A stretch of DNA of 34,171 nucleotides, from positions 1 through 34,171 of IMG/VR virus record IMGVR_UViG_3300042542_003122; one strand, given 5' to 3'. The notes under the pieces are model-generated. The model was not told the origin of the DNA and ran no database searches. It saw nothing but the letters and a program-made list of their open reading frames with translations. Below, piece by piece: positions 9,723 through 30,673 of the stretch. The first letter of the stretch is position 1. The number at the start of each line of letters is the position of its first letter. This DNA comes from a virus. The translations under genes and the position numbers were made by a program.

Positions 9723-9752
9723 TTGGACTTAGTTTTGTTGAGTTTTTATAAT
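9723..9752 (+). promoter_or_regulatory. Sigma-70-like promoter, rightward
   Basis: TTGGAC (9723-9728), an 18-bp spacer, then a perfect TATAAT (9747-9752). A dyad ATACC-GGGG-GGTAT follows directly at 9753-9766, covering the expected transcription start, which suggests operator control. It points to the early arm, with a leader of about 280 nt before the first gene. Confidence 0.5.
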
Positions 9753-10722: not shown

Positions 10723-10899
10723 ATGCCCCACATCAACCGCCACCAACAGCGTGCCCTGCCCCTGCGCGGGGCGCATCCCAACCCCAAGGCACAGGAAGAC
10801 CTGCGCCGCATCCGCGAGCGCCTGATCCGCGAGATCGAGGAGCGCGAAGGCAAGGCCGAGATCAAGTACTGGGAGCGCAGGACTTGGCTTTGGAAGTGA
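10723..10899 (+). CDS. Small basic hypothetical protein
   Basis: A 58-aa protein beginning MPHINRHQQRALPLRGAH and ending YWERRTWLWK. It is strongly basic with a central charged helix rich in Arg and Glu (RRIRERLIREIEERE). The start lies 3 bp after the stop of the preceding gene, with which it is probably co-translated. Dyad site 3 lies 6 bp after its stop. Nucleic-acid binding is possible from charge alone; no family is recognised. Confidence 0.6.
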   Translation: MPHINRHQQRALPLRGAHPNPKAQEDLRRIRERLIREIEEREGKAEIKYWERRTWLWK

Positions 10900-10905
10900 G
10901 AAAAC

Positions 10906-10920
10906 GGGTCACCGTGACCC
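10906..10920. promoter_or_regulatory. Dyad site 3 (GGGTCACCGTGACCC)
   Basis: Perfect arms with C as the centre base, extended to 17 bp by flanking C and G. It is preceded by AAAA and followed by TTTCC, 6 bp after a stop codon, so it can form a terminator-like hairpin as well as a protein-binding dyad. Confidence 0.75.
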
Positions 10921-11003
10921 GTTTCCGTCTACTTTGTCGCCCGATCAAGGGTCGGATGACACTTCGTTTGACAAAAATCCACTTGTCCAGCGTTTACCCC
11001 GTC

Positions 11004-11243
11004 GTGGACAGGTGGTGGGTAGCGTAAGTCGTTGATTTCGTTCGGTGTCCTCTCTCTACTACATATATATCTATATCTTTATATGTATGTAGTAGTAATG
11101 TATTCGTGTGTGTAAAAGAGAGTCTCTCTTCCACTTCCTTTTCACTAACTGTGCACTGGCCACGCCGAACCTGATACATTTTTAGCTAGTCAAGTGACTT
11201 GCTGAGCAAGATCATGCACTTATGCTACCCACCACCTGTCCAC
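11004..11243. repeat. 25-bp inverted repeat bounding a 190-bp AT-rich core
   Basis: The left arm 11004-11028 (starts GTGGACAGGTGGTGGG) and right arm 11219-11243 (ends CCCACCACCTGTCCAC) are reverse complements at 24 of 25 positions. The outer flanks, 10995-11003 and 11244-11252, match as a direct repeat at 7 of 9 positions, which could be a decayed target duplication or chance. No transposase is present. Confidence 0.85.
11056..11095. repeat. AT-rich 15-bp stem-loop
   Basis: CTACTACATATATAT (11056-11070) pairs with the segment 11081-11095 across a 10-nt loop, with one G-T wobble. It lies inside the 25-bp inverted repeat in the most AT-rich part of the window. It has no T-run on the plus strand. 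Confidence 0.7.
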
Positions 11244-11305
11244 AACCCTGTCAACCTTGGACGCACCCGGCCATTTCTGGCCACTTTTGACCCAAAGGAG
11301 CCCTT

Positions 11306-12076
11306 ATGACTCGCCCAACTGCGTCTCGCGTGTGCCCTGAGTGCGCCACCGAGCGACCCCTTCAAGCCTTCCGCCGATGGCGTGGCGCGCACCGTGTGCT
11401 GCACGAGGTGTGCAATTTCTGTAGTCCCGAGCGCAAGCTCAGCGAGATGAGCGAGCAGGATCGTGCCGCCGCGATAGCAGCGCGCAAGCCTGAGATGTAC
11501 GCCATCGAGCGGGCCAAGCGTGCGGTGGAGTACAGGAAACGGATCATGGCGGGCGACGCCATGCGACGCACCACCCACCTGCGCAAGATGGAGCGGATCA
11601 AGAACTGGAACGCGGCCATCGGCAGCGCCATGCGCGAGGAACTGGAGAGCGCGAATCGCAAGCGGGACTCGTACCTGAACATGGCTGCGGAGTACCGCGA
11701 CCCCAACCCGAAGGTGCGCCCATCGTCGGCCAAGTCAGCATCGAGCGTGAGGTTCGGCGCTTGGGCTGCGGATACCTGGATACCTTTCTACACGCGGTAC
11801 GCCGAGATACTGGAGCGGGTGAAGGACGAGATTAAACATCGCGCTCATACCCTGGGCGCACCGATTAAACCCACGGAGGAGGAGACGAAACTCGAAACCT
11901 ATATAAAACCTGAAGAACTAATTGAATTAAAAGACCTTTATTCCAAGGGCACAGTTATTCCCGGCGTGCGCAGTCGAATACCTTGGGTAATCGAAGGCCG
12001 ATATGCCAAAACCAGACAGCGCAAAAAGAAAACGGGTCACAGTGACCCGAAAACCAACGAAGGAGAAAGCAAATGA
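11306..12076 (+). CDS. Zinc-finger hypothetical protein
   Basis: A 256-aa protein with AAAGGAG before the ATG. A four-cysteine zinc site is at the N terminus (C10-x2-C13 and C36-x2-C39), like those before HNH or DNA-binding domains, but no HNH residues follow. Residues 50-130 are long basic helices. The 3' part (from about 11880) shifts to AT-rich codons (Lys, Ile, Glu), unlike the first two thirds. The last codons encode TGHSDPKTNEGESK, which also carries dyad site 4 and the ribosome-binding site of the next gene. Its stop overlaps the next start as ATGA. Function unknown; DNA binding is likely. Confidence 0.7.
   Translation: MTRPTASRVCPECATERPLQAFRRWRGAHRVLHEVCNFCSPERKLSEMSEQDRAAAIAARKPEMYAIERAKRAVEYRKRIMAGDAMRRTTHLRKMERIKNWNAAIGSAMREELESANRKRDSYLNMAAEYRDPNPKVRPSSAKSASSVRFGAWAADTWIPFYTRYAEILERVKDEIKHRAHTLGAPIKPTEEETKLETYIKPEELIELKDLYSKGTVIPGVRSRIPWVIEGRYAKTRQRKKKTGHSDPKTNEGESK
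12034..12048. promoter_or_regulatory. Dyad site 4 (GGGTCACAGTGACCC), inside a coding region
   Basis: Perfect arms with A as centre base, within symmetric flanks AAAAC...GAAAA. This copy lies inside the 3' end of the zinc-finger gene, and is read as GHSDP. It is followed by A rather than T residues on the plus strand, so it cannot be a rightward intrinsic terminator. Confidence 0.75.
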
Positions 12077-20541: not shown

Positions 20542-20803
20542 AGATTACGGGCGCTACATGGAGGCGGAGGTCGCCAACATGGAGCCGGAGAAGAAGGAGG
20601 CGCTGATCCACGCCATCAAGACGCTGTTCCGCGCCTTCTCGGAAGACAACACGCAAGGCGTGCTCATACTGCTTGAGAAGGGTGAGTGCATGACGACGAT
20701 GGGGCTGAACGCCACGTACGACGAGTCGGTGCGCATAGTCAACACGGCACTCAACGTCTTCATCGAGGACGCGATCACGACAGAGACAGAAACAAAACAC
20801 TAA
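20531..20803 (+). CDS. Small acidic hypothetical protein
   Basis: A 90-aa acidic helical protein (MNNEDYGRYMEAEVANMEPEKKEALIHAIKTLFRAFSEDNTQGVLILLEKGECMTTMGLNATYDE...). GGAGG lies 7 nt upstream of ATG 20531, which is preferred over an upstream in-frame start. It overlaps the VRR-NUC gene by 11 bp and precedes the polymerase by 8 bp. Function unknown. Confidence 0.65.
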   Translation: MNNEDYGRYMEAEVANMEPEKKEALIHAIKTLFRAFSEDNTQGVLILLEKGECMTTMGLNATYDESVRIVNTALNVFIEDAITTETETKH

Positions 20804-27793: not shown

Positions 27794-30673
27794 ATGGAAC
27801 CGCTAGATTTCTTAGCGGCGGTTTTGCCGTCTCCGGGTCACGGGTATTACTGTGCGGCAGAACTCTCCTCACCCAAAAAACAGCACGTCTTCACCGAAGA
27901 CTTGGCTGAGATACCCACACACGCACGAAGCTGGCTTGAGGGGCAGCAGGATGTGTATTTCGCGCTTGCTACGTTTGCGGATCGGGGTAAGCGCACCGCC
28001 GACAACGCCGAGTACATCAAGTCCCTGTTCATCGACATGGACGGGTACGAGAGCCGCGAGGCTGCTCAGTCCGCACTTGATGCGTTCCTAGCCGATACTG
28101 GGCTGGACGCCTATGGCAACCCGTGGATCGTCGCCTCTGGCGGCGGGCTGCACTGCTACTGGCCGTTCGACAAGCCCCTGACTGTAGCCCAGTGGAAGCC
28201 CATCGCGGAGGCGTTCAAGCGCCTGTGCAAGCAGCGCGAACTGGCCATCGACAACACGGTCACGGCGGACGCCGCCCGGGTGCTGCGCATCCCTGGCACC
28301 AAGAACTTCAAGAAGAAATACGGCGAGCCCAGGCCGGTGGAAGTCCTGTCGCAAGGCGCGGCTGTCCTCGATGCTGACGAGTTCTTCGCCAAGCTCAGCA
28401 GTTTGTTGGGCACAGCCGTGCCCACCCCGGCGCCGCTGATCGACCTCCCAGGCAAGCGCCCCATCAACGCCACCAAGACGGGCGTGCAGATGCTGGCCAA
28501 CAGTGTCGTGCGTTTCGGCACGATCATGAAGCGCACCAGTAGCGGGGACGGCTGCGCGCAGTTGGCCCACTACGTGGAGAACGCCGAGGACGACGGCATG
28601 GAGCCGCTGTGGCGCGGGCTGCTGAGTCAGGCCAAGTACTGCGCGGACGGGGACAAGGCGGCAGTCATGCTCAGCCAACTGCACCCGTACGACGAAGACC
28701 GGATGCATGCCAAGCTACGGGATATTAAAGGCCCCTATCCCTGCATCAAGTTCGATAGCGAGAACCCAGGCGTTTGCCAGAACTGCAAGCACTTCGGCAA
28801 GATCACCAACCCCCTGGCCCTGGGCCGGGAGGTCATGGCCGACACGTCGGAGAAGGAACTGGAGATAACCCCGGCTGACCCGGACGATCCCGATGCGCCC
28901 ACCATCAAGGTGGTACGACCTACGCCCCCCAGGGGATACGCCTACGGGGTCAACGGCGGCGTGTACGTCGAGAAGATGGTCGAGGACGCGGACGGGAACA
29001 AGCGCAAGCAACAGGTGATGATCCTGCCCTACGACATGTTCGTGGTGGACATCCTGAACAAGGAGAACGAGCACACCGTCCACATGATCGCGCACCGCCC
29101 AGGCAAGCCTGCGGATGTCCTGTTCCCACAGAAGGCGTCGGTCAGCAAGGACGAGTTGATCAAGGCCCTGGCCGCGCAGAACATCATGGCCTCGTACGGG
29201 TCAGGCAACGACAAGAACCTGTTCGAGTACGTCCGGGCCTGCGTCGAGGAGGCCAGCGTCAACAAGAAGACCGTCAAGATTCCCGGCCAGTACGGGTGGC
29301 AAGAGGACGGCACCTTCGTCTACAGCGGCAAGATTTACCTGCCAGACGGCACCACCCGCACGGTGCCCATGCCCGACCTGCAGAACATCACCCGCATCAC
29401 GCGCTCGGCGGGTAACCTGGAGAAGTGGCGGCGCTTCCCACAGATGCTGATCAAGCGGGAGTTGTACGACCTGCTAGCAATCTCGTGCATCTCCTTCGGC
29501 GCACCGCTCATGCGCTTCACCCAGATGCCCTGCCTGACGTTCCACGCAGGCTCAACCCAGTCGGGTACGGGTAAATCCTTGGCGCTGTCGCTGCTCAATT
29601 CGGTGTGGGGTCACCCGGTGCGATATCGCACAGGCAAAAGCACCTCCCCCGTTACGATGCAGCAGCGGATTGGCAATCTTAACTCACTCCCCTTCACATC
29701 GGACGAAATCACGCACAAGTCGCGCCACGACATGGAGTGGTTCCCGGGCATGGTGTTCGACCTGTCCGAGGGCCAGGGCAAGGAGAAATCGGAGGTTCAC
29801 CACAACCGCGAGCGCATCAACCTCGTGTCGTGGGCGACCCTGGCGCTCTTCACGTCCAACACCCACATGCAGGACTACATGGCTGGTGTGCGAGCGCACA
29901 CTTCCCAAGGCGAGTTGCTGCGGATGCTGGAGTGGACGCCCGAGGAGAAGCTGAACTGGACGCCCGAGGAAGAGCAGACCATCCGCGTCCTGCAGGAGAA
30001 CTACGGTGTGGCCGGTGAAGCCTACGTGCGCTGGCTCGTGCAGAACCAAGAGACGGCTGAGCGCGTGACCCGGGAAACCATCGCCATGATCAAGCGCGAC
30101 TGGCAGATGACCGGGGACGAGCGTTTCTGGGCCGGTGGCTGCGGCGCGATGATTGCAAGCGCCATCCTCGTCTCGTCCAAGTACGCAGGCATCATCGACC
30201 TGCCTGTCGCGGAGATCATCAAGAGTCTCAAGCGCATGGTGGACAAGGCCCGCCGCGTGGTGCGCAACGGCGTGCGCACGGCAGAGGATGTGCTCAACGC
30301 TTTCACCCGTGACAGCTACGGTCAGTTCGTCGTGATCAAGAAGAGCGACGGCAAGGTGTTGGCTGCACTGGGCAGCGGGGAGATCATCGACCAGACGATC
30401 ACGCGCAACAAGGTGTTGGGGCGCGTGGAGCACGAGATCGAGGTGGCCGGGTACGTGGACTACTTCATTGAGGAGCAGGTCATCCGCTCACACTGCGTGG
30501 CGATGTCGTTCGGTTACGAAGACTTCAAGAAGCAACTAGAGCAGATCGACGGCTACACCGTGTCGTACATGCGCAAGGACATGATGGCCCGCACCAGGGG
30601 GCCGCAGATGCGCATCCGAGCCATGTGCATCAGGCGCAGGGTTGAGCGTGAAGCTGCCGTGGACGACGCTTGA
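27794..30673 (+). CDS. Primase-helicase (AEP-type primase plus DUF927-like ATPase)
   Basis: A 959-aa multidomain replication protein. N-terminal archaeo-eukaryotic primase-like part: FIDMDGY (79-85, catalytic acids), ASGGGLHCYWPF (114-125), and IDNTVTADAARVLRIPGTKNFK (152-173). A Cys cluster, CIKFDSENPGVCQNCKHFG near 317-335, is a probable zinc site. The C-terminal half resembles DUF927/phage helicases: FHAGSTQSGTGKSLALSLLNSVWG with Walker A G586-S595, and LPFTSDEITHK after it. It would both prime and unwind at the fork, with the family A polymerase. No strong ribosome-binding site; it starts 12 bp after the previous gene. Confidence 0.88.
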   Translation: MEPLDFLAAVLPSPGHGYYCAAELSSPKKQHVFTEDLAEIPTHARSWLEGQQDVYFALATFADRGKRTADNAEYIKSLFIDMDGYESREAAQSALDAFLADTGLDAYGNPWIVASGGGLHCYWPFDKPLTVAQWKPIAEAFKRLCKQRELAIDNTVTADAARVLRIPGTKNFKKKYGEPRPVEVLSQGAAVLDADEFFAKLSSLLGTAVPTPAPLIDLPGKRPINATKTGVQMLANSVVRFGTIMKRTSSGDGCAQLAHYVENAEDDGMEPLWRGLLSQAKYCADGDKAAVMLSQLHPYDEDRMHAKLRDIKGPYPCIKFDSENPGVCQNCKHFGKITNPLALGREVMADTSEKELEITPADPDDPDAPTIKVVRPTPPRGYAYGVNGGVYVEKMVEDADGNKRKQQVMILPYDMFVVDILNKENEHTVHMIAHRPGKPADVLFPQKASVSKDELIKALAAQNIMASYGSGNDKNLFEYVRACVEEASVNKKTVKIPGQYGWQEDGTFVYSGKIYLPDGTTRTVPMPDLQNITRITRSAGNLEKWRRFPQMLIKRELYDLLAISCISFGAPLMRFTQMPCLTFHAGSTQSGTGKSLALSLLNSVWGHPVRYRTGKSTSPVTMQQRIGNLNSLPFTSDEITHKSRHDMEWFPGMVFDLSEGQGKEKSEVHHNRERINLVSWATLALFTSNTHMQDYMAGVRAHTSQGELLRMLEWTPEEKLNWTPEEEQTIRVLQENYGVAGEAYVRWLVQNQETAERVTRETIAMIKRDWQMTGDERFWAGGCGAMIASAILVSSKYAGIIDLPVAEIIKSLKRMVDKARRVVRNGVRTAEDVLNAFTRDSYGQFVVIKKSDGKVLAALGSGEIIDQTITRNKVLGRVEHEIEVAGYVDYFIEEQVIRSHCVAMSFGYEDFKKQLEQIDGYTVSYMRKDMMARTRGPQMRIRAMCIRRRVEREAAVDDA

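Follow-up and report, generated by a model that had tools for sequence, protein, structure and literature searches.

What does a long inverted repeat do in the early region of a tailed phage, between two genes and around a core that encodes nothing recognizable? The window, that is, the whole stretch of DNA analyzed here, is a 34,171-base virus record. Its minus strand carries terminase, portal, capsid, and GroES-like genes and its plus strand genes for DNA polymerase A, an SNF2-type helicase, a PD-(D/E)XK nuclease, a DUF927/primase-helicase-like protein, and a sigma-region-4 protein, a structural and replication gene set that identifies a tailed phage, here a lytic-type freshwater one. When the terminase was searched against bacterial and archaeal genomes, a single contig (52% identical) was returned, located in a betaproteobacterial MAG. 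The sigma-70 region 4 domain protein of the phage (16891 to 17619) is possibly an early-to-late transcription switch. The element lies between two plus-strand genes, one ending at 10899 and the next starting at 11306, and no conserved gene was recognized in between, as the initial annotation had proposed for the core. It is placed about 1 kb into the early region, which is read rightward and has a promoter-like site at 9724, and shares this early/replication arm with DNA polymerase A, the helicases, and primase.

The inverted repeat described in the initial annotation was confirmed. The left arm (11004 to 11028, plus strand; GGACA at 11006 to 11010 and an inward TAGCGT at 11020 to 11025) pairs at 24 of 25 positions with its inverted copy 190 bp away (11219 to 11243, minus strand; TGTCC at 11237 to 11241), and the outermost 20 bases of both arms match perfectly. 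Beyond these limits, a weaker match runs both outward and inward to give extended arms of 59 nt (10985 to 11043, plus strand, and 11204 to 11262, minus strand; 76% complementary). Extended arms were also seen in relatives L009 and L011. That the pairing exceeds chance was borne out by 500 first-order Markov shuffles of 1.2-kb regions of relatives, all of which scored 13.5 or less, and no second inverted repeat scoring at least 15 (span up to 450) was found in the 34-kb window. The core between the arms (11029 to 11218), a candidate duplex-unwinding region, is indeed AT-rich, with a GC content of 39.5% compared to 58.8% window-wide, and the lowest-GC 100-nt stretch of the window is at 11051 to 11150. 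The core also contains the 15-bp hairpin noted previously, which is imperfect (11056 to 11070 with 11081 to 11095, 93%; CTACTACATATATAT / ATATGTATGTAGTAG) and includes a ATATATAT motif at 11063 to 11070. In its right half, a pyrimidine-rich tract (11123 to 11145, plus strand) was read by eye, and relatives have similar tracts. On the plus strand, the sole mismatch of the arms and that of the hairpin both read G-T.

Our searches drew on IMG/VR, a phage collection, and a genome collection. With the terminase as query, related viral contigs were found by the hundreds, and the 228 loci that matched it provided 121 non-redundant upstream regions. These relatives are environmental contigs that share descent, and clustering lowered their redundancy but left some. 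An ungapped scan 1.7 to 2.9 kb upstream of the terminase gene (TerL) with a score cutoff of 15 detected an inverted repeat in 61 of 98 relatives, compared to 0 of 121 at 0 to 1.2 kb, 6 of 73 at 3.0 to 4.2 kb, and 0 of 500 shuffles. The motif TATATAT was present 1.6 to 3.0 kb upstream of TerL in 84 of 98 relatives (2/98 and 5/71 in control intervals). Altogether, some 2 kb upstream of the terminase gene, 89 of the 98 non-redundant relatives had inverted arms (62 relatives), the TATATAT core (84 relatives), or both. The gene-free element was put at 240 to 310 bp, and spans across relatives are mostly 270 to 390 bp, with arms that stay in register and gap-free for as much as 133 bp. Three complete or near-complete genomes, G001, G003, and G004, contain no other long inverted repeat, and in these the element also coincides with the lowest-GC 150-nt window; in G002 and G010, this minimum is at the expected place. 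The conserved unit is of the kind expected of an origin: a non-coding AT-rich core between repeats of a protein-binding type, present in one or few copies per genome and linked to replication genes on the same arm.

Among named relatives, no comparable element was found in the 6 kb upstream of TerL in HTVC023P, HTVC027P, 023Pt_psg01, and Pag-Yong1 (terminase 44 to 52% identical), and two papers on such pelagiphages make no mention of a replication origin or inverted repeat. Phage DSL-LC04 (OR003939.1, 61.5 kb) has one inverted repeat scoring at least 15, intergenic between divergent genes at 20562 to 20764, which is possibly a distant counterpart. Contig L170 has an inverted repeat with 87-nt arms at 2192 to 2478 of its region upstream of TerL, with the top score seen (62.0); both of its arms read partly like a gene start, and it was excluded from the element family as different in kind.

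These comparisons bear on the two readings that the initial annotation had left in competition, a replication origin and a MITE-like, non-autonomous insertion bounded by terminal inverted repeats. An insertion would account for the inverted ends and for the flanking 9-mers of the window (TACCCCGTC / AACCCTGTC), which do match at 7 of 9 positions as previously observed. However, the near relative L009 has TACGCCGTC there (6/9), and the flanks resemble a continuation of the inverted repeat more than the target duplication that had been suggested. The element also occupies one place in 89 of 98 relatives, is single copy in complete genomes, and keeps its position while its arms differ between relatives. 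Because no empty site was found among the relatives and the position is conserved, we rejected the insertion, whose probability we regard as practically nil; the same two observations favor the origin.

We then asked which sequences make up the arms and core, counting boxes over 31 element sequence clusters. CCGCATG occurred 29 times compared to 0.4 expected and was oriented inward in 26 of the 29 cases (plus in the left arm, minus in the right), with an extended consensus of roughly A-CCGCATGAATACTAGCGT. TATCTA was similarly ordered, with 34 plus-strand copies on the left, 14 minus-strand copies on the right, and none opposed. TAGCGT/ACGCTA was found in 22 of the 31 clusters, and TGTCC was in excess (62 observed versus 14.2 ± 3.6 in shuffled elements) in mixed orientation. 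Within the core, TATATATA stands left of center, and the right side, judged by eye, has an alternating purine-pyrimidine stretch and a pyrimidine tract. The core repeat CTATCTATC was observed 20 times compared to 0.1 expected. A DnaA box had also been proposed near the arm end; CTGTCCACA at 11236 to 11244 does match at 7 of 9 positions, but across the element family such boxes show no enrichment (for TTATCCACA, 1 observed versus 2.5 expected with up to one mismatch, and 38 versus 30.4 ± 5.0 with up to two). An origin built on DnaA boxes was discarded on these counts and because no phage DnaA was found in six genomes, and a DnaA-trio was discarded since a core repeat of period 4 is more widespread among relatives than one of period 3. 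Searches of the six genomes found no integrase, DnaA C-terminal domain, or ParA.

Immediately to the right of the element in the window is a gene (11306 to 12076, plus strand) for a 256-aa basic protein with a pI of 9.9, an N-terminal 4-cysteine zinc finger, and long helices. A gene for a basic protein of 200 to 330 aa directly follows the element in 42 of 55 loci examined, starting 1 to 74 nt past the arm at nearly all loci, and the product was basic in all 42 cases (pI 9.2 to 10.5). These proteins form two families, A1 with the 4-cysteine zinc finger (including the window) and A2 without it, which were joined by profile comparison (E = 3.2e-6, probability 88). Predicted structures, of fair confidence (mean pLDDT 82 and 87), consist mostly of long helices. 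The linked protein had no significant fold neighbor in the PDB, matched no known initiator fold and no Pfam family, and had only marginal hits in PHROGs. Linkage and charge suggest that it may bind the repeats, making it a candidate element-binding or initiator protein. The 959-aa DUF927/primase-helicase-like protein (27794 to 30673, plus strand; 49 to 100% identity across the clade), possibly a helicase loaded at the element, was considered and rejected as the reader of the arms: it is 99 to 100% identical in G001 and G002, whose arms are unlike those of the window, and a protein that is unchanged across phages with largely unrelated arms is unlikely to read them.

The linked protein is fast evolving and is inherited along with the element. 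Over 1,128 pairs, element similarity had a partial rank correlation of 0.50 with the right-hand gene and 0.17 with the left flank. Between the window and relative L031, the shared k-mer fraction was 0.24 to the left of the element, 0.03 within it, and 0.02 to its right, and homology of the window to L016 and L031 stops at 10967 and resumes at 12025. As the sequence of the boxes changes in step with the linked protein, the two behave as a specificity cassette that can be swapped. A palindrome, CGGGTCACCGTGACCCG (10905 to 10921), lies just left of the cassette, and another, CGGGTCACAGTGACCCG (12033 to 12049), lies at the end of the linked gene near the point where homology to L016 and L031 restarts. 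Both belong to a 17-bp intergenic type, CGGGTCANNNTGACCCG, that stands at gene ends (9930, 10450, 10905, 12033, and 12878) and has 6 matches with up to two mismatches compared to 0.2 expected. Close relatives have another palindrome in the same role (GCGACAAATGTCGC in L013 and GGGGACAAATGTCCCC in L015). The copies at 10905 and 12033 adjoin seams of gene exchange, and palindromes of this type could be terminators, operators, or recombination seams.

The turnover of the arms allowed us to weigh whether the element acts as DNA or as RNA, that is, as a structured non-coding RNA or mRNA leader whose plus strand would form a long helix that closes over an inner hairpin. Its predicted folds are very stable, and both helix mismatches in the window would be G-U on the plus strand; minimum free energy (MFE) scanning by itself was uninformative, as MFE follows GC content. 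Arm sequences differ even among phages whose replication proteins are 99 to 100% identical. Isolated arm mismatches comprised 127 transversions, 37 G-T, and 39 A-C, and after correction for composition both G-T (53 versus 38.1 ± 4.3) and A-C (96 versus 83.8 ± 6.3) were in mild excess. Among related elements, changes from paired states were one-sided in 896 cases (177 G-T, 251 A-C, and 468 other) and compensatory in 56, and both-sided changes numbered 155 compared to 66 under independence, counts that do not represent independent events. The excess of both-sided changes is as an RNA helix would predict; however, one-sided, non-wobble changes predominate, pairing is not kept through compensatory and G-U changes, and Rfam gave no match in the window or nine relatives. 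Because the changes are mostly one-sided and without G-U preference, what is selected appears to be paired DNA boxes rather than an RNA helix; these patterns are better accounted for by DNA boxes that both arms retain and that change partly in concert. One such concerted change was seen between L022 and L023, where the same one-base insertion is present in both arms of L023 (GGGTAGCG to GGGTAAGCG and GGGTAGTG to GGGTAAGAG). The RNA is retained as a rival on account of the mild G-T excess, and we hold it to be distinctly unlikely.

The main rival to an origin is a large operator/promoter region, at which the linked basic protein would sit on the inverted boxes and control its own early transcription, with the AT-rich core as promoter. 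The close spacing of the linked gene behind the arm at nearly all loci and the exchange of element and gene together are what such a region predicts, and a regulatory region would likewise be inherited with its gene, which counts against the origin. It predicts less well the large core, the most AT-rich DNA of the window, and dyad-symmetric boxes spanning 270 to 390 bp around about 100 bp of AT-rich DNA are large for an operator. In addition, a sigma-70 consensus scan found no promoter-like site inside the element of the window and a better one at 9724, before the operon, and the genes of the same strand upstream could be read through. On balance, we think an operator/promoter unlikely, if less so than the RNA. 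A site for DNA packaging (pac/cos) or site-specific recombination would be in keeping with the terminase gene about 2 kb away and with the ordered boxes, which resemble protein-binding sites. Yet a directional packaging start is not expected to have symmetric arms, contig ends found up to 5 kb from TerL are scattered and do not concentrate at the element, and two complete contigs that share a 123-base end overlap have their ends away from it. Recombination is countered by the lack of a tyrosine integrase in six genomes; a lambda-type attachment site and a partition site were set aside for the lack of this enzyme and of ParA in the same six. A packaging or recombination site thus appears very improbable.

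We conclude from these sequence comparisons that the element is most likely a phage replication origin that would act as double-stranded DNA. The combined arrangement, a dyad-symmetric origin exchanged as a cassette with the gene of its binding protein, we also consider probable. The linked protein, or a complex containing it, would bind the inverted boxes in both arms and bend or strain the DNA between them; the TATATAT core would then open, and the primase-helicase and DNA polymerase A would start there symmetrically, in both directions. Swapping of the cassette may be driven by competition with co-infecting relatives or satellites. GC skew had no clear switch at the element and was uninformative, because coding strand and skew are confounded; an AT-skew minimum lies 1 to 1.5 kb from the element but tracks the coding strand.

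The proposed origin shares features with several known systems, and we do not claim membership in any known origin family. In lambda and its lambdoid relatives, the gene for the origin-specific initiator O is inherited with the origin, and an AT-rich region lies beside the binding sites. The iterons of lambda lie within the O gene as direct repeats, whereas the boxes here are inverted around the core and upstream of the gene for an unrelated protein. As in bacterial oriC, an AT-rich region adjoins the boxes, and some element cores contain CTACTAC trinucleotides; unlike oriC, the element lacks DnaA-box enrichment, no phage DnaA was found, and the commoner core repeat, CTATCTATC, has period 4 rather than 3. 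At herpes simplex OriS, inversely oriented binding boxes flank an AT-rich spacer (PMC12543377). The likeness to OriS and UL9, inverted boxes around an AT-rich core in a dyad-symmetric layout, is one of plan only: OriS has three short boxes compared to box arrays of 60 to 130 bp, the virus and proteins are unrelated, and the box sequence of the element turns over between close relatives. In PLE, a non-coding repeat region is the origin, and modules are exchanged and iterons change under an origin-directed nuclease (PMC7145576, PMC8263062). Turnover of the element resembles this replication-module exchange and iteron change in the PLE satellites (PMC8263062), but PLE has RepA_N, which was not recognized here, and semi-palindromic direct iterons of about 30 bp.

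More tentatively, the element may represent an undescribed class of phage origin, in which long dyad-symmetric box arrays surround a TATATAT core and are recognized by basic, helical initiators of a new family, often with a zinc finger, and with origin and initiator repeatedly swapped or rewritten as a pair to give phage-specific replication. Few phages have a known origin, and among the abundant uncultured freshwater ones almost none does. Should the element be the origin, hundreds of metagenomic phages would gain a mapped replication start and a candidate initiator family without a fold match. The rapid change that it undergoes jointly with the neighboring gene would then record, in nature, a competition over the specificity of replication such as has been seen experimentally between phage ICP1 and its satellites.
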